Shown here: piece after piece, positions 1 through 7,010 of the stretch
Layout: each line of letters begins with the position of its first letter
How positions within the stretch are numbered: position 1 is the stretch's first letter
Assembly (NCBI GenBank): GCA_020793555.1
Contig: DQIO01000201.1
Location: forward strand, 1-7,010
Direction: 5' to 3'
Length of the DNA stretch: 7,010 nucleotides
Origin: Methanosarcinaceae archaeon
GTDB taxonomy: Archaea > Halobacteriota > Methanosarcinia > Methanosarcinales > Methanosarcinaceae
The notes under the pieces: generated by a model
The model's input: only the letters and a program-made list of their open reading frames with translations
What the model was told of the DNA's origin: nothing
The model's database searches: none
Program-made: the position numbers and the translations under genes

Positions 1-287
1 CGACCGTTCGAATGAGCACAGCCAAGAGTTATAGGAGTATTCGGGAACAATTCTGATGCATAGCAAAAAACCTCTGCGAAATCACGTGGGTCGGGTTTGA
101 CCGATGACATCGGAGTCCCTGCAAGCGGCATGAGTCCGGTTATCACGACTGTGGCCGGATTGATCTTGCGGATGAGTTCAAGTGCCCGAAGTTCCCCTCG
201 CATGTTGCCAAAATCAAGACCCACAGATGCATGTAAGGTATAACAGCCATTGCAGTTTATGGAACACACGTATTGCAGGTCAAATAT
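1..287 (-). pseudogene. Radical-SAM protein remnant, C-terminal part (runs off left edge)
   Basis: An open minus-strand frame runs from just after a TGA at 288-290 to the window edge. It encodes LHASVGLDFGNMRGE, then VVITGLMPLAGTPM, then PNTPITLGCAHSNGR. This spacing of a VGLDFG strand, a G-L-x-P-x-x-GTPM block and an LGCA block resembles the C-terminal half of the biotin-synthase-like radical-SAM group I recall as COG1856, which includes archaeal lipoate-synthase-type enzymes. The 150-200 residues normally upstream are missing: the DNA beyond 287 shows no matching protein and another gene ends at 687. The open frame contains C-S-I-N-C-N-G-C, a C-x3-C-x2-C spacing like the iron-sulphur motif, only a few residues before the C-terminal half. 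That could be an internal deletion or chance. A neighbouring frame (ATG at 250) reads AMAVIPY just before the join, which would instead suggest a frameshift near 236-241. The family call is from recalled motifs and is moderate; the exact enzyme is unknown. Confidence 0.5.
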
Positions 288-686
288 TCACAGAGGGGCT
301 AACTGATGATTTTGGAACTGTGCCACGCACTACATTAAAAATCGGACACAAATCGACTAAAAGTCGTGCACTTTTAAAGGCTATGGCATGCGTTTTTGAA
401 CGCCGGTAAATACGTGCATTATCGATAAATTCCCAAGCCAATCTTGACGCTATGGCAAAATACGCAGTCACTGCTTATCTTATAGATATTAGGCAACATT
501 TTCATGGAATATACAGTTTTCAAATTATACATTATGATTGATCTGACTGATATGAAGGATTTTTTTGGTCAATGGTATGGGAATCCGCCGCCTGCGGCGG
601 TTGCATTGTTTTTAGTTTCAGATAGAACAATCTCATTTAAGCGCTATCTTACCACGGCTATACAAATAAAAGTTCCATTCATAACT
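288..686. other. Gene-poor stretch, no convincing coding sequence
   Basis: About 400 bases lie between the radical-SAM remnant and the end of the nucleotidyltransferase gene. Short open frames on both strands (the longest about 63-75 codons) resemble no family I recognise and lack clear ribosome sites. The stretch contains one GC-rich hairpin (585-600) and a small CGACT/AGTCG stem at 354-366. It sits where the missing 5' part of the radical-SAM gene should be, so it may be replacement or decayed DNA. Confidence 0.5.
585..600 (+). other. GC-rich hairpin followed by a short T run
   Basis: CCGCCG and CGGCGG form a perfect 6-bp stem around CCTG (a seventh C-G pair is possible). Nine bases downstream on the plus strand there is a run of five T (609-613). 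The shape is terminator-like for plus-strand transcription, but no recognisable plus-strand gene ends here, so the role is unclear. It could also be a dispersed intergenic palindrome. Confidence 0.3.
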
Positions 687-1634
687 CTAAATTGATTCAG
701 ATTTTTCAAGTAACGTCAGCGAGCGGATCCACTCACCTTTGGGTTCGCGCGACGTACCGACAACCAGACGTTTAATATCCCCTACCTGCTCAACCACACC
801 CTGCGCCTCAATAATCTCACCGACAAGCGCCTGACCTGCGTATGTGTGGGTGTATGAAAGCACATGATCGATTTCTTCATGGTCAACCTTATATATCGAA
901 GGACTGTCAAAAGCAAAATCCGCATTCGTGACTGTGGCTTCGATCTTCATTGTACCAACATCCTTGCCATGTTTCATTGGCTCTTTAATCTGATCCCAGT
1001 CGCGTACGAACAACAGATCAAAATATGTACCATCCACCATTCCACGATTGCCTTTTCGTTTCTCATGCAGTATGAATTCATCAAAAGATATCTCAGGTAT
1101 CCGTTTTTTATAGATACGCTGCCACATCGCATCATCAATGTCCTCAATGCTGCCTGCCTTTGAATTTATCTTTGCAGCCGCAATGGCATCACGTGCCGTG
1201 AACCAGTCATTGCCATACACAACAAAATCAATGTCAGATGTCTCATTTTGCAATCCTGGTAGTAAAGACCCTGTAACACCCATCCGGGAAAGTTGGATGC
1301 CTGCATCCTTCAGTACCCCAACAATTGCGGCAACCCTGTAGTTATTCTCAACAAGTTGCGAGATACAATCGGTTGGATGCAACAAATGTTTGACCTCATT
1401 TTCAGGAACCACATGAACATCCTCAACCCACTCGGGTCGATTTTTCCGCATGAAGTCAAAAGCCACATCGAAATCATATTTCTTATAGCGAACACCATCA
1501 AGTTCCCGCTCACCATTCTCATGCGGGACATACCGAAATGTTGATCGTATGCCGTCAGGGTGAAAATAATCTGCAACTGCAAATATCCAATCATCCTTTG
1601 TAATAATAAAATCCCTAAGCCTTGTTTTAATCAT
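687..1634 (-). CDS. Nucleotidyltransferase-fold protein of unknown function
   Basis: A predicted 315-residue cytoplasmic protein of the polymerase-beta nucleotidyltransferase superfamily. The signature is G-V-T-G-S-L-L-P-G-L followed by S-D-I-D-F-V-V-Y-G: the GS pair at residues 122-123 and the two metal-binding aspartates at 134 and 136. A likely third carboxylate is in YFDLLFV (D206). The N-terminal 90 residues (TRLRDFIITKDDW, FRYVPHENGER) and the C-terminal beta-rich segment (VGEIIEAQGVVEQVG) are outside the core fold. I recall similar archaeal proteins as COG1665, 'predicted nucleotidyltransferase', with no assigned substrate. I chose the ATG at 1634 because GGATTGAG lies just upstream; a TTG at 1643 would add three residues but has no useful ribosome site. 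The gene lies downstream of methionine aminopeptidase on the same strand, separated by the 60-bp repeats, one of which may supply its TATA box. The fold is well supported; substrate and pathway are not. Confidence 0.85.
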   Translation of the reverse strand: MIKTRLRDFIITKDDWIFAVADYFHPDGIRSTFRYVPHENGERELDGVRYKKYDFDVAFDFMRKNRPEWVEDVHVVPENEVKHLLHPTDCISQLVENNYRVAAIVGVLKDAGIQLSRMGVTGSLLPGLQNETSDIDFVVYGNDWFTARDAIAAAKINSKAGSIEDIDDAMWQRIYKKRIPEISFDEFILHEKRKGNRGMVDGTYFDLLFVRDWDQIKEPMKHGKDVGTMKIEATVTNADFAFDSPSIYKVDHEEIDHVLSYTHTYAGQALVGEIIEAQGVVEQVGDIKRLVVGTSREPKGEWIRSLTLLEKSESI

Positions 1635-1681
1635 GATACTCAATCCAATGTCTATTAAGCATTCTTCTGTTTTTATCGTAG

Positions 1682-1701
1682 TATATATTTATAAATATAT
1701 A
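1682..1701. promoter_or_regulatory. Palindrome of repeat copy 1; candidate TATA element for the nucleotidyltransferase gene
   Basis: A perfect 20-bp palindrome with arms TATATATTTA and TAAATATATA. Its centre contains TTTATAAAT, close to the archaeal TATA box. It lies about 50-65 bases upstream of the ATG at 1634 on the minus strand, which suits a transcript start near 1665. The alternatives are a regulator-binding operator or an AU hairpin in the 3' part of the upstream transcript. The palindrome is seen; the promoter role is inferred. Confidence 0.45.
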
Positions 1702-1741
1702 GTTCGAGTCAATCCAAGCGTCAGCGAGGTTTTTCTCGTAG

Positions 1742-1762
1742 TATATGTTTTATAAACATATA
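1742..1762. promoter_or_regulatory. Palindrome of repeat copy 2
   Basis: Arms TATATGTTT and AAACATATA form nine base pairs around the loop TAT. Relative to copy 1, one A-T pair has become G-C on both arms, so the pairing is kept although the sequence has changed. It also contains a TATA-like core and may be a second promoter or operator. Confidence 0.45.
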
Positions 1763-1822
1763 GTGCAAGTTAATCCGAGCATAGCGAGGATTTTCTTGGT
1801 CTGTTGCTAATTATTTGGTCAA

Positions 1823-2737
1823 CTATGTGGTTACGGTACATCCTGACTCTTCCACAATAACGGTATGTTCGAACTGGGATACGATCCCACCCGATGTTTC
1901 ATGGAGCACAGGATATGCAATTATGTCACCTTTGACCACATAATCCTCAATCTTAACACCATCCCTGTCTTTGACCCAACGACATGCGAACGGGAGATAC
2001 CCATACTGCTGATAAAGGTCATCAAGCAAACCATTGCTGTGCGTATTGAATTTATTATTATGCTTATCGCGTATATGCTTATCGAATCGTTTATTCAGGC
2101 CAAGGCTAAATATATGCGCATCCCCATTTCCAGTAGTACCTTTTCCATACGTCGCAAAAGGCTCGATCGCGATCACATCCCCTGCGTGTAGCGTGTTCCC
2201 ATAAGATGCCGCATAATTTGGTATATTCAAATCACCATGAAGGCTATATTGCCCGAGGCTGTGTCCTGTAAGGTCATATATTGGTGTGAAACCTTTCTTG
2301 TTTATTGTATCCTCAATGATTTTCCCCAATTCATTGGTGTTTACTCCTGCACAGGTTATGGATATCGCATTCTCAAGTGCTTTTTTTGATGCATCGATCA
2401 AGTCTGCGTGATCCATAGTTGATATCTCAACTGTTGCTGCCGTGTCTGCTATATACCCATCGATATGCACCCCGATGTCAATCTTAACCACGTCGCCTTT
2501 TTGCAATAGAAGCGAATCATTGGCAGGTGGCGTATAATGGGATGCGATCTCGTTTATCGAAATGTTGCATGGGAACGCTATTTTCCCACCAAGTTCAATA
2601 ATACGTGCTTCTGCTGCCATGGCAAGTTCCAATATAGACGTACCCTCATTACGTGAAGCATGTCCTGTCGTTTCCTGTAAAACTCTTGATGCGATCTGCC
2701 CCGCATCAGTATAGCATTGTAGTATATCGGCATCCAT
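1823..2737 (-). CDS. map: Type II methionine aminopeptidase
   Basis: Removes the initiator methionine from new proteins in the cytoplasm when the second residue is small. The 304-residue length matches archaeal type II enzymes (about 295). All five metal ligands of the pita-bread fold are visible: D87 and D98 in KIDIGVHIDGYIAD, H159 in TGHSLG, E192 in IAIEPFA and E290 in SQFEHTVIV. The substrate-side histidines H67 (ASHYTPP) and H167 (LHGDLNIP) are also present. The helical insert that separates type II from type I enzymes falls around residues 210-265, including YGYLPFACRWV. The start is the ATG at 2737, preceded by GGGTTGAAATAG, a weak ribosome site. It diverges from the amidohydrolase gene, sharing the 2791-2810 promoter region. 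The nucleotidyltransferase gene follows on the same strand. The enzyme appears intact. Confidence 0.97.
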   Translation of the reverse strand: MDADILQCYTDAGQIASRVLQETTGHASRNEGTSILELAMAAEARIIELGGKIAFPCNISINEIASHYTPPANDSLLLQKGDVVKIDIGVHIDGYIADTAATVEISTMDHADLIDASKKALENAISITCAGVNTNELGKIIEDTINKKGFTPIYDLTGHSLGQYSLHGDLNIPNYAASYGNTLHAGDVIAIEPFATYGKGTTGNGDAHIFSLGLNKRFDKHIRDKHNNKFNTHSNGLLDDLYQQYGYLPFACRWVKDRDGVKIEDYVVKGDIIAYPVLHETSGGIVSQFEHTVIVEESGCTVTT

Positions 2738-2790
2738 CTATTTCAACCCGTGCCTGAAAATGTGTAATCTTTATTATGTTGAAAACGGTA

Positions 2791-2810
2791 GGTAATTATA
2801 AAACATTACC
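2791..2810. promoter_or_regulatory. Divergent promoter with inverted repeat around a TATA core
   Basis: GGTAAT (2791-2796) and ATTACC (2805-2810) are perfect inverted repeats flanking TATAAAAC. Read on plus, TTATAAAA gives a TATA box about 50 bases before the TTG at 2852. Read on minus, TTTTATAAT lies about 60 bases before the ATG at 2737. One bidirectional TATA region could serve both genes, and the flanking arms could bind a dimeric repressor that blocks both. The sequence pattern is direct; the function is inferred. Confidence 0.5.
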
Positions 2811-2840
2811 CAAATACTCCTGTAAAACCAAAAGACCACC

Positions 2841-2848
2841 GAGGAAAG
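2841..2848 (+). promoter_or_regulatory. Ribosome binding site that fixes a TTG start
   Basis: GAGGAAAG lies three bases before the TTG at 2852. No in-frame ATG occurs until residue 96 of the protein, inside a catalytic block, so this site decides the start. Confidence 0.6.
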
Positions 2849-2851
2849 ATT

Positions 2852-4057
2852 TTGCCCCTAATACCAATCGAAGAATGGATAATAAAGCTCCGCCGCGTGT
2901 TCCACAGCGAGCCTGAAATAAGTTTTAAAGAATACAAGACTCAGGAACGGATCATCAAAGTATTGCAGGACTTAGGAATTGAACCGCAAAAAATCGCAGA
3001 CACCGGTGTTGTCGCAACAATACAAGGAAATGGGACCGGACCATGTATCGCACTTCGGACAGATGTCGATGCCCTTGAGATACTTGAAGTGCCCACCGCG
3101 CGAAATAAGGATTACATCTCCCGTAACATCGGTTTCATGCATGCATGCGGACATGATGGCCATATTGCCATGGTTTTGGGTGCAGCGCGCCTTTTACAGG
3201 AGAGCAGACACACCTTTGCAGGAAGTGTCAGGTTGATATTCCAACCTGCAGAAGAGCAGCCGCCCGGGGGCGCGATAAAGGTTATCGAAGAAGGCGGGCT
3301 TAACAGCGTGGATGCGATTGTTGGGATGCACATCTTTAGTGCTGTGGATGTTGGTAAGATCGCATTTCGGGAAGGGAGTTTCATGGCAAGTTCGAACATG
3401 TTCACCATCAAGATCATCGGTAAAGGCGGGCACCATTCGAATCCCGAGGACTGTATCGACCCCATACTCATTGCGGCAGACTTTATAAGCGCAATTAACA
3501 AAAATATTAAGAGCAGGGTAGACCCTTCGAAATACGTGCTTGGCATCGGTAAGATCGAAGGCGGCGCACAATTCAACAGGACACCGGATGAAGTAAACAT
3601 AATCGGGAGTTACCGCACGTTCGATCACAACGATACCAAAACCATTGATGATATGATAACGCAGACACTTGATCGCCTTATGGGATCATACACACCCAAC
3701 GATCGCAACAGTGCACCTGCATATGATCTTGACATACTGCACGGCTATCCTGTACTTGTGAATGGTGTCCCATTTACAAAAGCGGTATACACACTGCTAA
3801 ATGAAAAGTATCAGGATGTTGATGGTAACGCTAAACCCATCTTTGGAGCAGAGGATTTTGCATTTTATCTGCAAAAAGTGCCCGGCGTCTATCTTACACT
3901 TGGAACTAAAAATCCTGATAAAGATATTGTTGAAGGGAACCATTCAAGCAGATTCGACATTGACGAGGATATACTGATCACTGGCACAGAAATTTTGATG
4001 TCGATCGCATTGGACTTTCTGGAATATCCAGACAATTACGGGGTTCTTATGCAATGA
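2852..4057 (+). CDS. M20-family amidohydrolase (N-acyl-amino-acid / hippurate hydrolase type)
   Basis: A metal-dependent hydrolase that cleaves an amide bond, probably releasing an amino acid from an N-acyl conjugate; the real substrate is not evident. The 401 residues fit the M20D subgroup (usually 380-440). Catalytic blocks in order are ALRTDVDALE (67-76), MHACGHDGH (96-104, metal ligands C99 and H101), QPAEE (131-135, the general-base and ligand glutamates), GMHIF (H160), GAEDFAFYL near residue 330, and GNHSSRFDIDE (H364). The dimerisation 'lid' domain is roughly residues 180-295 and begins after ASSNMFTIKIIGKGGHHS. There is no signal peptide, so it is cytoplasmic. Translation starts at TTG. 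The last four bases (ATGA) overlap the start of the GNAT gene, implying translational coupling. Family members include hippurate hydrolase, indole-acetyl-amino-acid hydrolases and N-acetyl-diaminopimelate deacetylase, and sequence reading alone does not separate these. Confidence 0.93.
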   Translation: MPLIPIEEWIIKLRRVFHSEPEISFKEYKTQERIIKVLQDLGIEPQKIADTGVVATIQGNGTGPCIALRTDVDALEILEVPTARNKDYISRNIGFMHACGHDGHIAMVLGAARLLQESRHTFAGSVRLIFQPAEEQPPGGAIKVIEEGGLNSVDAIVGMHIFSAVDVGKIAFREGSFMASSNMFTIKIIGKGGHHSNPEDCIDPILIAADFISAINKNIKSRVDPSKYVLGIGKIEGGAQFNRTPDEVNIIGSYRTFDHNDTKTIDDMITQTLDRLMGSYTPNDRNSAPAYDLDILHGYPVLVNGVPFTKAVYTLLNEKYQDVDGNAKPIFGAEDFAFYLQKVPGVYLTLGTKNPDKDIVEGNHSSRFDIDEDILITGTEILMSIALDFLEYPDNYGVLMQ

Positions 4058-4494
4058 TCATAAAGATATTTTCCACATCCCTGACCGGCGAGGTCAAGGA
4101 CTTTGTTCTTGGCGTGCTCAAAGAGCAGGGGTTTGAATTCGATTTGAACAAGGATTTTGATCTTGGCAACATTGATAAATATTATCTACAATCCGGCGGT
4201 GTTTTTTATGTGGGGGTTGTGGATGGTGCGATAATTGGTACGAGTGCTGTTCGAAGGATAGATGACGAACAATGCGAGATCAAACGCATCTATGTCAGGA
4301 AAGATTTCAGGGGTAGGGGGTTTGGCAGGGAATTATTCCTGAAGAGTTTGGAATTTGCCAGCCATAATTTTTCGGTAGCCTTGCTCAAAACGGATGCTAA
4401 ATTGACAGATGCGATTGGGTTGTATCTTAAAAATGGATTTTCGGTTGTGAAGGAAGAGGATGGTGTGGTTTATTTTAGTCAAAATATGACGTAG
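4054..4494 (+). CDS. GNAT-family N-acetyltransferase
   Basis: A 146-residue single-domain acetyltransferase that would transfer an acetyl group from acetyl-CoA to an amine. The acetyl-CoA loop is RGRGFG (residues 86-91) after the strand CEIKRIYVRKDF, the usual motif A arrangement. The end, GLYLKNGFSVVKEEDGVVYF, is typical motif B and C-terminal strand of small GNAT proteins. The ATG lies within the stop of the upstream amidohydrolase (ATGA), so the two are almost certainly co-translated. An acyl-removing and an acyl-adding enzyme made together suggests related substrates, perhaps an amino acid or small amine, but this is inference. The gene ends about 30 bases from the convergent RhuM gene. 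Substrate unknown. Confidence 0.92.
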   Translation: MIIKIFSTSLTGEVKDFVLGVLKEQGFEFDLNKDFDLGNIDKYYLQSGGVFYVGVVDGAIIGTSAVRRIDDEQCEIKRIYVRKDFRGRGFGRELFLKSLEFASHNFSVALLKTDAKLTDAIGLYLKNGFSVVKEEDGVVYFSQNMT

Positions 4495-4505
4495 TATATT
4501 CCCCA

Positions 4506-4538
4506 TCATTCCATATTTGTAATTTTATTCGTAGTCAT
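4506..4538 (-). pseudogene. Fossil start of a further RhuM-type gene (10 codons)
   Basis: ATGACTACGAATAAAATT begins here, overlapping the stop of the downstream-most RhuM gene in another frame and preceded by GGGAGG six bases upstream. It encodes MTTNKITNME and stops. The same arrangement (GGGAGGG, then ATGACTACAAATAAAA) forms the working start of the 5544-6575 RhuM gene at the previous junction. This looks like the leftover 5' end of another tandem copy that has been deleted. It could still be translated as a short peptide, but nothing supports a function. Confidence 0.5.
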
Positions 4539-4599
4539 CTTTTTCCTCCCGAATGCGCCGTACCTCTTTGTCAAAATCTGAAATGTAATTTGTATCCTG
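4525..4599 (-). repeat. 3' end repeat shared with copy C
   Basis: These 75 bases, covering the last codons and stop of copy A, match 6562-6636 (end of copy C) without gaps at 64 positions by my count. Both encode ISDFDKEV-x-RIRE-x-KDDY at the C-terminus. The intervening copy B lacks this tail. It suggests recent duplication or gene conversion. Confidence 0.7.
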
Positions 4600-5544
4600 A
4601 ATTTTCTTGAATGTTTCGTATTCTTTGCTTGCCAGAACCAAAGCAACTTCATGACTGATTTGTCCGGCATTAGTGAGTATTTCATATTCACTGAACTTCA
4701 GGAAGGCGTTTAGTTTTTCAGTCCAATTTTTCATGTACATTGGCTTATTACGAACCGCCTGTAATTCCGCATAATCAAGATACATGGTGACTATACGGTT
4801 CAAATGATCAAGTTCTGTTTTATCCAGGTAGTTTTTTGCTATGGCAACGTCACCTGGCATGATTTTACCGTCAGGTCCTTTTCGCCATGATGTCAATCCC
4901 ATATTTTGCTTATCACTCTTGGCTCGTTCGGCTACGATTTCTGCGGCGGTCTGTCCGGTAATGGCAAAATGCAGTTTGTTATGCACCGTTGCAAAGAACT
5001 GTTTTGTATCCTCTGCTTTTGGTGAATAGTCAATGGAAGTGGCGTAAATATCAGTAATTTTCTGATATAACATCCGCTCACTTGAACGGATGTCACGGAT
5101 TTCTTCGAGTAAGTCATCAAAATAGCGTGTACTGAAACGGGAACCATATTTGAAACGGTCGCTGTCCATTGTAAAGCCTTTATGGATGTATTGCTGAAGA
5201 ATTGAAATTGCCCATTGCCGGAACTGTATGCCGCGTTTTGAGTTAACCCTGTATCCCACCGCGATAATTGCTTCAAGCGAATAAAACTTTGTTTGATATT
5301 TCTTGCCATCTTCAGCAGTATGTGCAAAATATGCACATACTGAATCTTCCTGTAATTCGTTATCAGAAAATATGTTTTTCAGGTGTTTGGTAACAACACT
5401 ACGGTCTACATCGAACAGTTCCGCAATCCGCTTCTGGGGGAGCCAGATGTTTTCATTAGCGTACAGCACCTCAATGTTGATTTTTCCATTAGGGGCTTGA
5501 TAGACGGTAATTTGATTATCTGGTAATTTTTTATTTGCAGGCAT
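4525..5544 (-). CDS. RhuM-family protein, copy A (downstream-most)
   Basis: A 339-residue member of the RhuM family ('virulence protein RhuM', named from a Salmonella pathogenicity-island gene); biochemical activity not established as far as I know. The N-terminal domain (about 10-125) has a helix-turn-helix-like stretch QKRIAELFDVDRSVVTKHL (37-55), then SVCAYFAHTAEDGK (68-81) and FYSLEAIIAVGYRVNS, ending QFRQWAI. The C-terminal region carries family blocks FFATVHNKLHFAITGQTAAE (183-202), MGLTSW, GPDGKI and DVAIAKNYL (232-240). It has no signal peptide or membrane segment. The start is the ATG at 5544, sharing one base with the stop of copy B (TAATG), with GAAGGAAAA just upstream. A perfect hairpin lies in codons 68-77. 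Related genes are, as I recall, often found inside type I restriction-modification operons, so a defence or DNA-binding role is plausible but unproven. Confidence 0.92.
   Translation of the reverse strand: MPANKKLPDNQITVYQAPNGKINIEVLYANENIWLPQKRIAELFDVDRSVVTKHLKNIFSDNELQEDSVCAYFAHTAEDGKKYQTKFYSLEAIIAVGYRVNSKRGIQFRQWAISILQQYIHKGFTMDSDRFKYGSRFSTRYFDDLLEEIRDIRSSERMLYQKITDIYATSIDYSPKAEDTKQFFATVHNKLHFAITGQTAAEIVAERAKSDKQNMGLTSWRKGPDGKIMPGDVAIAKNYLDKTELDHLNRIVTMYLDYAELQAVRNKPMYMKNWTEKLNAFLKFSEYEILTNAGQISHEVALVLASKEYETFKKIQDTNYISDFDKEVRRIREEKDDYE
5316..5342 (-). other. Perfect 11-bp hairpin inside RhuM copy A
   Basis: Arms CAGTATGTGCA and TGCACATACTG pair fully around a 5-base loop (TATTT on the coding strand). 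It spans codons 68-77 (SVCAYFAHTA). The same position in copy B holds a hairpin of identical geometry with a compensated, different inner stem, which argues against chance. It could be a site on DNA for the protein itself or a recombinase, or an mRNA hairpin. Confidence 0.8.
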
Positions 5545-6575
5545 TACTTTTTTCCTTCGCTGTTATCTTCCAATTTTTTAATCATTTTGTCAAAATCGGA
5601 TTCGAATAACCTGTCTTGTACAATGCGGTACTTCTCAAATTCACTTTCAGCGAATGCTTTTGCTATCTCTTGTGTTACTTTACCGGGATTATCTAATAAT
5701 TCTCTATTATTGAATTTTAAAAACACATTCATCTTTTTAGACCAATCTTCCATTGTCATCGGAATATTTTGTTCTGCCTGATCTTCTGCATAATCAAGGT
5801 ACATTGTAGTAATACGATTTAATGCTTTAATCTCTTTTTCTGAGAGATAATTTTTGGCAATGGATACATCTGGTTTTATGATTTTTCCATGAGGCGCATT
5901 TTTCCATGTAGTTAATCCCATGTATTCTTTATCACTGTTCGCCCGCTCAATTATCAATTCAGCGGCAGTGTTCCCATGAGTGGCAAAATGTAATTTATTC
6001 TGTACTGTCGCGAAGAATGTTTTTGTAATTTCACTCTCAACATTATAATCAACAGCAGTGGCATATATGTCTGTTATTTTCTGATAGAAGCGACGCTCAC
6101 TTGCCCGGATTTCCCGGATTTCAGCGAGCAAATGGTCGAAATAGTCCTTATTGAAGAAAGAACCGTTTTTTAACCGTTCATTATCAAGCACAAAACCTCG
6201 AATAGTAAAATCTCGCAAGATATTAATTGCCCATTGACGGAATTGGGTTGCACGTTCTGAATTGACCCGAAATCCAACGGCAATAATGGCATCGAGATTG
6301 TAGAATTTCGAAGTATATTCTTTTCCATCTTCGGCAGTATGTCGGAAATCCCGACATACTGAAATCTCTTTTAATTCGCCTGTTTCGAAGATGTTTTGTA
6401 AATGCTCTGTTATAGTGCTGCGACCTTTTTCAAACAAAACGCTCATCAGCTTTTGAGTAAGCCATACCGTTTCATCTTCAATGCGAACCCCGATAGTATT
6501 TTTATCGTTCTGTTTTGTAAAAATCAGAAATTCCACAGTGCTGTTTCGAATTTGAAGTTTTTTATTTGTAGTCAT
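5544..6575 (-). CDS. RhuM-family protein, copy B (middle)
   Basis: A 343-residue RhuM-family paralogue, clearly similar to copy A along its length. Blocks include LTQKLMSVLFEKGRSTITEHL (39-59; HTH-like), SVCRDFRHTAEDGK (72-85), FYNLDAIIAVGFRVNSE, QFRQWAINIL, FYQKITDIYATAVDY, FFATVQNKLHFATHGNTAAE, MGLTTW and DVSIAKNYL. The HTH-like helices differ most from copy A, as if binding specificity had diverged. I start it at the ATG at 6575, with GGGAGGG five bases upstream. The longer frame from 6632 is only an out-of-frame reading of copy C's tail. It overlaps the end of copy C by 14 bases and shares one base with the start of copy A, so the array is one transcript. Its C-terminus (LEDNSEGKK) lacks the RIREGKDDY tail of its neighbours. 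It looks AT-rich: 5701-5760 has 16 G/C of 60 by hand count. Activity unknown. Confidence 0.92.
   Translation of the reverse strand: MTTNKKLQIRNSTVEFLIFTKQNDKNTIGVRIEDETVWLTQKLMSVLFEKGRSTITEHLQNIFETGELKEISVCRDFRHTAEDGKEYTSKFYNLDAIIAVGFRVNSERATQFRQWAINILRDFTIRGFVLDNERLKNGSFFNKDYFDHLLAEIREIRASERRFYQKITDIYATAVDYNVESEITKTFFATVQNKLHFATHGNTAAELIIERANSDKEYMGLTTWKNAPHGKIIKPDVSIAKNYLSEKEIKALNRITTMYLDYAEDQAEQNIPMTMEDWSKKMNVFLKFNNRELLDNPGKVTQEIAKAFAESEFEKYRIVQDRLFESDFDKMIKKLEDNSEGKK
6335..6361 (-). other. Perfect 11-bp hairpin inside RhuM copy B
   Basis: Arms CAGTATGTCGG and CCGACATACTG pair fully around a 5-base loop (GATTT on the coding strand), in codons 72-81 (SVCRDFRHTA). Compared with copy A, the outer eight pairs are the same and the inner three pairs are all different yet still paired. 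Confidence 0.8.
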
Positions 6576-6636
6576 CCTTACCCTCCCGAATGCGCCACAC
6601 CTCTTTGTCAAAATCCGAAATGTAATCCTCATCCTG
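6562..6636 (-). repeat. 3' end repeat shared with copy A
   Basis: Partner of 4525-4599; the stop codons align and the following bases contain the start of copy B (ATGACTACAAATAAAA), matching the fossil start after copy A. The duplicated unit therefore included a gene end plus the beginning of the next gene. Confidence 0.7.
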
Positions 6637-7010
6637 TGTTACCCGATATTCGTCATATTCCTGCTCGGCTTTTAGCTTCGCTTCCAGTGCACTGACTTTA
6701 CCTTTATCAGGTAGTATCGGGTAGCTGGATAATTCCAGGAAACTATGGAGAAATTGCCCCCAGTCATCCATTTTCATCAAAATCTGCCGCTGTGCCCTGT
6801 TTTCCGCCAGATCGAGATATGCGGAAATTATTTGATTCAATTCCTTGATGTGAGTTTTGCCCAGATAATTTTTGGCAATGGAAACATCGGACTTCATTAT
6901 TTTCCCATCCGGCGCCTGTTTCCAGTTTGTCAAACCCATATGGATCTTTGTTGCATCTGCCGAATCATAAATAATCTCTGCCGCCGTTTTTCCTGTAATC
7001 GCCCAGTGGA
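6562..7010 (-). CDS. RhuM-family protein, copy C (C-terminal part, runs off right edge)
   Basis: The last 148 or so codons of a third RhuM paralogue; the frame stays open to the window edge. It begins HWAITGKTAAEIIYDSADA, which aligns with HFAITGQTAAEIVAERAKS of copy A, followed by MGLTNW, APDGKI, DVSIAKNYL and a LNQIISAYLDLAENRA helix matching the family's C-terminal region. It ends with ISDFDKEVWRIREGKDDYK. Its last 14 bases overlap the start of copy B. The N-terminal domain, with the segment expected to carry the hairpin, lies beyond 7010. The family assignment is secure from the shared blocks; function unknown. Confidence 0.9.
   Translation of the reverse strand, partial: HWAITGKTAAEIIYDSADATKIHMGLTNWKQAPDGKIMKSDVSIAKNYLGKTHIKELNQIISAYLDLAENRAQRQILMKMDDWGQFLHSFLELSSYPILPDKGKVSALEAKLKAEQEYDEYRVTQDEDYISDFDKEVWRIREGKDDYK
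6581..6587 (-). promoter_or_regulatory. Strong ribosome binding site of RhuM copy B
   Basis: GGGAGGG lies five bases before the ATG at 6575, inside the coding end of copy C. It is the reason for choosing 6575 over the upstream start at 6632. Confidence 0.75.

Follow-up and report, generated by a model that had tools for sequence, protein, structure and literature searches.

A palindrome within the wing codons of rhuM genes is the predicted binding site of the protein they encode

The 7,010-nucleotide stretch analyzed here (the window) is contig DQIO01000201.1 of a Methanosarcinaceae archaeon (assembly GCA_020793555.1, positions 1 to 7,010) and carries two complete genes of the uncharacterized but very widespread RhuM family, rhuM-A and rhuM-B, each with a palindrome inside its coding sequence. 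A homologue search for this family scored at least 7,999 proteins. On the basis of covariation across homologous genes, the RhuM module very probably binds the palindrome of its own gene. The complete reading, in which a winged helix-turn-helix (HTH) dimer binds the cognate palindrome and thereby autorepresses the gene, is moderately probable.

Palindromes in the Window and Across the Family

The original prediction placed two inverted repeats with 11-bp perfect arms and a 5-nt spacer at positions 5316-5342 and 6335-6361, which are equivalent codons in two RhuM paralogues. It described an inner triplet that changes from GCA to CGG between the paralogues while the opposite arm is altered to match. 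All of this is borne out, and both genes lie on the minus strand and match Virulence_RhuM (PF13310). The rhuM-B palindrome (5316..5342, minus strand) reads CAGTATGTGCA-tattt-TGCACATACTG on the coding strand and runs from the second base of the S68 codon to the first base of the A77 codon, while that of rhuM-A (6335..6361, minus strand) reads CAGTATGTCGG-gattt-CCGACATACTG. Each is the predicted cognate site of the HTH domain of its own protein, with helices VDRSVVTKH (rhuM-B) and KGRSTITEH (rhuM-A). Within the 2.56-Mb draft genome, TATGTGCANNNNNTGCACATA (rhuM-B) has one exact copy only, in the gene itself, and TATGTCGGNNNNNCCGACATA (rhuM-A) likewise has one exact copy only.

Positions are numbered as k, the distance from the dyad center; this center falls on the third base of the codon for n in the motif S-V-C-X-n-F-Z-H-T-A, and the arms span k2 to k13. 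In a sample of 222 unique RhuM-type N-terminal modules, the best palindrome was sought within a 60-nt span of each. It lies at the canonical center in 208 of the 222, and a mean of 10.18 of 12 pairs is formed at the same codons. When codons are reshuffled synonymously at the codon use of the respective gene, the mean is 7.16 pairs, and 195 of the 222 genes exceed this null at p<=0.05. Centers shifted by 3 to 30 nt yield only 2.4-4.1 pairs, and arms re-paired between genes yield 5.55 (maximum 6.02 over 300 draws). The repeats thus exceed what a protein-preserving null provides, which supports the proposed selection on nucleic acid inside the coding region; the arms of these modules do not vary independently.

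The residues X and Z of the motif fit this constraint. Their couple is one that complementarity permits in 206 of the 208 canonical modules, namely R/R (51), A/A (46), S/E (42), E/S (35), K/L (23), R/L (6), and others (5). If the palindrome is a DNA-binding site, the couples A/A, R/R, K/L, S/E, and E/S would be by-products of the need for its two half-sites to remain complementary. Each gene has one palindrome: among 213 genes, no second core is found nearby save a paralogue's own site. The module that contains the palindrome is joined to RhuM, to Fic (L070, L071, L209, L267), or to unassigned C-terminal parts.

The Recognition Helix Predicts the Half-Site

The strongest evidence for binding is that residues of the recognition helix predict the bases of the half-site, in strong support of the suggestion that the repeat is a self-recognition site for an HTH-like domain. 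Helices of the type PAISKH accompany the inner half-site TTTCCA, STIS[KR]H accompanies TTGCAA, SVVTKH accompanies GTGCAA, and [RK]TINEH accompanies TCCGGA. STINEH and ATISEH share TTCGGA, NISLH goes with -AAGG or -GAGG, and HTINYH goes with TTCGAA. Departures are few, an example being PTINEH, which occurs with both TTCGGA and TTAGGA. Similarity of the core follows similarity of the helix with a partial rank correlation of 0.49 after correction for the rest of the module, compared to 0.12 for the rest of the module after correction for the helix (the pairs are non-independent in both). Between modules with 40-50% identity elsewhere, 5.1-5.5 of 6 core bases are shared when at least five of the six helix residues match, but only 1.84 when at most one does.

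When module columns up to number 99 are scanned as predictors with the motif left out, the top columns for k2 to k9 all fall in the recognition helix and are ordered along it. Helix positions 7 and 4 best predict k2-k5 (with position 3 between them at k5), position 3 best predicts k6, and positions 2 and 6 best predict k7-k9. The mean uncertainty coefficient for k2-7 is 0.264 (maximum 0.85) for helix positions 2-7 and 0.021 (maximum 0.29) for columns outside the helix. Common descent was controlled for with a FastTree tree of 182 genes, built with helix and motif masked, on which independent pairs were counted. These pairs agree 17.7:0 for helix position 6 and k7 (p 7.6e-6), 13.8:0 for positions 4 and 7 together and k3 (p 1.2e-4), 15.4:0 for position 7 and k4=A (p 6e-5), and 14.4:1.0 for position 7 and k4=G (p 1e-3).

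The k6 pair consists of two third-codon positions and is doubly synonymous. Among the 51 canonical genes with the R/R couple, k6 is C.G in 16 of the 17 with R or K at helix position 3 and in none of the 34 without (Fisher p 2.4e-12, uncorrected for descent), and the split holds at identical peptides (SVVRKFRTTA, ATIRNFRIVQ, and SVIRKFRITA). The core also occurs in another reading frame and at a shifted place: an N-V-Q class (L007, L057, L218) with helix SVITKH or TVITKH reads the core TGTGCAA in a different frame, and L133, with helix STINEH, has its TTCGGA core 8 nt away.

The predicted structure agrees with such a role. The AlphaFold2 (AF2) model of rhuM-B has a mean predicted local distance difference test score of 86 and a predicted template modeling score of 0.72. 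It presents, in order, a helix, a turn, a recognition helix, and a two-stranded wing, the HTH plus beta wing arrangement of winged-HTH regulators. The predicted recognition helix of rhuM-B (R48-S60, RSVVTKHLKNIFS) is encoded at 5365..5403 on the minus strand and corresponds to AF2 helix 47-59 in model numbering, which omits Met1; by alignment, the helix of rhuM-A (R71-E83 of the listed open reading frame (ORF)) is encoded at 6384..6422, minus strand. Wing strand 1 of rhuM-B (5317-5337, minus strand) is predicted to be encoded by the palindrome itself, followed by wing strand 2 at 5278..5301, minus strand (AF2 strands 69-75 and 81-88 in model numbering).

Predictions on New Loci and Displaced Sites

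Twelve loci were fetched later as a hold-out; one of them, L268, duplicates a module of the original set, which leaves 11 new ones. A canonical palindrome occurs in nine of the 11, and the left-arm core is predicted at 6/6 bases in six loci and at 5/6 in L271. Over all twelve loci, 58 of 72 bases fit. Starting from the DNA pattern ACTATCCGGA alone, four new modules were reached (L380, L388, L412, L423), and all have the predicted TCCGGA-type helix, [RK]T[VA]NEH.

Ten modules without an accepted center, together with the hold-out locus L263, were scanned as exceptions. Five of these eleven (L195, L196, L198, L199, and L263, from Wolbachia phage WO) form one lineage with helix PAISKH, in which a displaced site of the predicted type, GAGTTGTTTCCA-ttt-TGGAAATAACTG, precedes the gene by about 190-250 bp. 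In L091 (helix PTVSEH), a site of the predicted type, GAACTATTCGGA-aaa-TCCGAAGAGTTG, follows the stop codon at a distance of about 31 bp. In two lineages, therefore, the site has moved yet is still in cis. L010 is a decayed copy, and L023, L068, and L244 are fragments. Another irregular case is the hold-out locus L272, a 143-aa stand-alone module of a Methanobrevibacter virus, in which a perfect 12-pair palindrome lies 17 nt from the canonical center and its TTCCA/TGGAA half-sites are spaced wider.

Free Copies of the Sites

As for free copies of the hairpin, which the original prediction proposed to look for, the archaeon's own draft genome has no exact free copy of either window palindrome, but free sites are present in viral contigs. 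The pattern ACTATCCGGAN3TCCGGATAGT has at least 120 matches there; among the matches listed, 113 lie outside module ORFs, in 39 contexts. TTGTTGCAA has 40 matches (28 outside module ORFs, in 20 contexts), and GTATGTGCA has 17 (11 outside, in 10 contexts), whereas two scrambled control patterns have none in these contigs. A site counts as outside if it has no match to the module profile at E 0.001, so that some may be decayed modules. Among the TCCGGA matches listed, contexts are symmetric at k12 in 37/39 and at k13 in 7/39, the loci range from 32 to 67% GC, every free locus has a single site (113/113), and the largest context is that of P1-like phages. In 34 of these contexts mapped by a rough ORF map, 22 sites are intergenic, seven lie in ORFs of at least 100 aa, and five in small ORFs. 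L316, L463 (P7), and L468 (P1) have a free 25-bp TCCGGA-type site in Upf89.5/pmgT, and the flanks differ between P1-like phages close to the site.

Among 237 genomes of the archaeon's class, the rhuM-B-type site occurs 12 times in 10 genomes, compared to zero for the backward control. Seven of the 12 lie in module ORFs, while by eye L453 looks like a cut module and L462 like a remnant. In E. coli, 2,183 of 5,426 genomes contain a match to a 30-base query; such matches fall in rhuM genes, in prophage DUF551 genes, and at other places. The query matches 147 records of the phage collection, and its scrambled control 48, the 10 listed matches of the control having E about 2. TTTCCA-type phage matches comprise 263 records, 143 from Streptococcus and 56 from Lactococcus, many of them partial only. 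In a pneumococcal phage (L471:2320-2341), an imperfect TTTCCA-type palindrome with 9/12 pairs lies between the S24-type repressor gene and the integrase side.

Proposed Mechanism and Alternative Explanations

The palindrome of about 25 bp would be read as double-stranded DNA by a dimer whose HTH domain is encoded just upstream in the same gene, with each half-site read by one recognition helix. Bound inside the gene, the dimer would block the elongating polymerase as a roadblock and thereby keep expression low. Once binding is granted, such autorepression is fairly likely. The operator would travel with the gene at every transfer, and diversified helix-site pairs would keep paralogues apart, as in the two rhuM genes of the window. 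An operator inside the gene would also make a promoter-side operator unnecessary, and the gene could do without its own promoter, which would explain the presence of rhuM in operons with overlapping genes.

Several observations weigh against this reading. The outer bases k10-13 covary with the stretch that follows the motif, with a coefficient of up to 0.94; this split into two classes may reflect common descent. The k6 link has only four supported independent pairs (4:0, p 0.125; eight on all branches), and one of the 17 genes with R or K at helix position 3 is an exception to it. In the hold-out, L270 and L266 fit at only 4/6 and 3/6 bases of the left-arm core, and L263, L272, and the right arm of L273 are missed. 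The DNA-pattern scans mostly re-found modules of the set (12/12 contigs for TTGTTGCAA), and the independent test therefore consists of four modules only. The scan found no site for L168, an intact gene, and the downstream site of L091 is at odds with promoter repression. Mismatches at k2 lean in the direction of an RNA stem, with 39 G.T and four A.C. By the rough ORF map, free viral sites are mostly not between divergent genes, and no rhuM module lies in the fetched stretch around them (0/39, 0/20, and 0/10 contexts for the three patterns). Since these free sites lack a nearby module, and in view of the downstream site of L091, the protein may do something other than autoregulate; it may mark a recombination junction or an element, or provide a host-phage recognition tag. 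One broader proposal, which is tentative, is that RhuM and RhuM-Fic are self-addressed DNA-binding effectors. In these, the tag in the wing codons and the helix would co-diversify into mutually blind types, and phages (P1-like, Streptococcus, Vibrio, and others) would carry single free copies as decoys or targets.

The alternative that survives best, although it is unlikely, is that the palindrome serves chiefly as a junction for recombination or breakage, at which the RhuM protein itself, or homologous recombination within the conserved 25 bp, swaps flanks and shuffles HTH modules and phage genes. In hybrid sites (L143, L164, L273), the left arm fits the helix and the right arm is that of a different class, as would be expected had a crossover within the site exchanged the HTH cassette. 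Of 18 truncated rhuM copies that were picked, 16 have a spanning match, and in 12 of these homology ends 13-44 nt past the site center. Truncations also coincide with the boundary between domains, however, and only copies containing helix and motif were picked, which is an ascertainment effect. Among 44 segments truncated at the 3′ end in a broader survey (with some duplicates), 16 end at residues +3 to +26 and the others between -20 and +205. Truncated copies include L045, L047, L065, L044, L056, L069, L068, L082, and L083, and in some such arrays a full second rhuM gene begins within about 60 nt. In L436 (1034-1360), an NISLH-type rhuM gene breaks off at YNLDAIIS. This gene has its own site, CAGTTGCCGAGA, and the 27-bp palindrome at the break, GTATGTGCA, is foreign to it and of the SVVTKH type. 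Free TCCGGA sites can share one flank while the other changes at once, as in L358 compared to the L317 family, yet many such pairs reflect small indels, and none were obtained with the other two patterns. Recombination alone leaves unexplained both the helix-site covariation and the re-matching of arms after a swap. The suggestion that the repeat is a recombination or integration site thus stands as a possible side role, consistent with hybrid sites, truncations just past the site, and free copies at some mosaic junctions.

Less probable again is that a mobile element uses the site in cis for replication or as a centromere, in which case binding within the protein's own gene would mark the element instead of controlling its expression. 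Known proteins do so (lambda O and Borrelia ParZ), the site stays in cis even when shifted up- or downstream of the gene, and each free locus has but one. The site is, however, a single palindrome instead of an array, one chromosome carries adjacent paralogues whose sites differ, and no ParA-like or replication gene is present among the seven window proteins scanned.

Control of rhuM translation or decay by an mRNA hairpin is highly improbable. The coding strand can fold in this way, and the G.T excess at k2 would suit a stem, but that excess is attributed to the fixed second base of the Phe codon. An RNA stem should favor G.U. Of the 2,220 cells at k3-12, 2,000 are Watson-Crick, 69 are A.C, 54 are G.T, and 97 are other; A.C is thus as common as G.T among the mismatches, which argues for a double-stranded site. 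The prediction of bases by helix residues, the displaced sites, and the free copies outside rhuM coding sequence likewise speak against an RNA element, and Rfam families have no match in the window at E<=1. The mRNA control element that the original prediction also offered is accordingly unsupported.

A constraint at the protein level, whereby contacts between the recognition helix and the wing strand produce the covariation and the palindrome arises by chance, is refuted by the synonymous null and the k6 split and has next to no probability: the motif does adjoin the helix in the AF2 model, but covariation occurs at doubly synonymous positions with identical peptides, and the same DNA core occurs in another reading frame.

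Gene Organization and Context

The rhuM-B gene (4525..5544, minus strand) encodes 339 aa, and rhuM-A (5544..6632, minus strand) has a listed ORF of 362 aa with a likely start codon at 6573-6575. The stop codon TAA of rhuM-A (5544-5546) overlaps the ATG of rhuM-B (5542-5544), leaving no intergenic space. The two complete proteins score 349 and 365 bits against PF13310 (curated cut-off 33.7) and match PADLOC PDC-S05 models for candidate defence proteins (E 8.9e-142 and 2.7e-152). Bro-N (PF02498) scores 18-23.5 bits in five of 10 relatives scanned, below its cut-off of 25.6, and is absent from the window-protein matches at E 0.001. The C-terminal part of a third rhuM copy (6562..7008, minus strand; PF13310, 152 bits) is also present; the contig stops at 7010, short of its palindrome codons. 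At their 3′ ends, rhuM-B (4523-4599) and the third copy (6560-6636) are 86% identical over 77 nt, a match that appears from sequence to be a trace of duplication in a rhuM array.

Overlap with neighboring genes recurs on plasmids: in pEJ01, rhuM lies between hsdM and hsdS and overlaps both, in pSRC6 it overlaps the specificity-subunit gene by one base, and in pTs485 it overlaps the next gene. In L264, L265, L267, and L274, rhuM or rhuM-fic lies inside plasmid restriction-modification clusters, with neighbor overlap in three. Elsewhere in the window, between two genes at 1673-1800, two tandem AT-rich units are seen by eye, each with a short hairpin (TCGTAGTATAT..ATATATAG) and ending in a GCGAGG-containing tail.

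Significance and Comparison with Known Systems

The site of a RhuM member is predictable from its sequence, by which an uncharacterized family gains a readable function. The helix-to-base code is legible in the genes, which amount to a natural library of specificities: most of the proteins are accompanied by their target. The protein sequence is constrained by the DNA site that its codons must also spell, and amino-acid covariation in such families can therefore be disguised nucleic-acid covariation. With free copies in phages, the role of these candidate defence proteins can be tested directly.

DdrC of Deinococcus radiodurans is the best fold match of the AF2 model, at 11% identity, and the shared arrangement shows no function. 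In the literature searched, no binding site or in-gene palindrome was found described for Virulence_RhuM PF13310 or PADLOC PDC-S05. Several other proteins have sites within their own genes. Lambda O has its binding region within its own gene and is suggested to bind DNA with its N-terminal part, which a linker joins to a C-terminal part that binds partners (PMC6022878). Borrelia ParZ, described as potentially phage-derived, has a site inside its own gene (PMC9712426), and RepC of repABC plasmids (PMC2783167) and SPP1 G38P (PMC3485210) have an origin within their own coding sequences. From these accounts, ParZ differs in binding a centromere together with ParA, and RepC and G38P differ in being replication initiators; several binding sites (iterons) in the gene would mark initiators of this kind, whereas rhuM has one palindrome. 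Lambda O is alike in being a DNA-binding protein with a site in its own gene, which for rhuM is predicted from covariation, but it has iterons and an AT-rich region for replication initiation, while rhuM has no known replication role. As far as the literature search reaches, what appears to be new is the combination of the RhuM family, a single palindrome in wing codons, and a readable helix-to-base code that spans bacteria, archaea, and phages; the large-scale co-diversification of site and helix is a feature of rhuM that sets it apart from lambda O.
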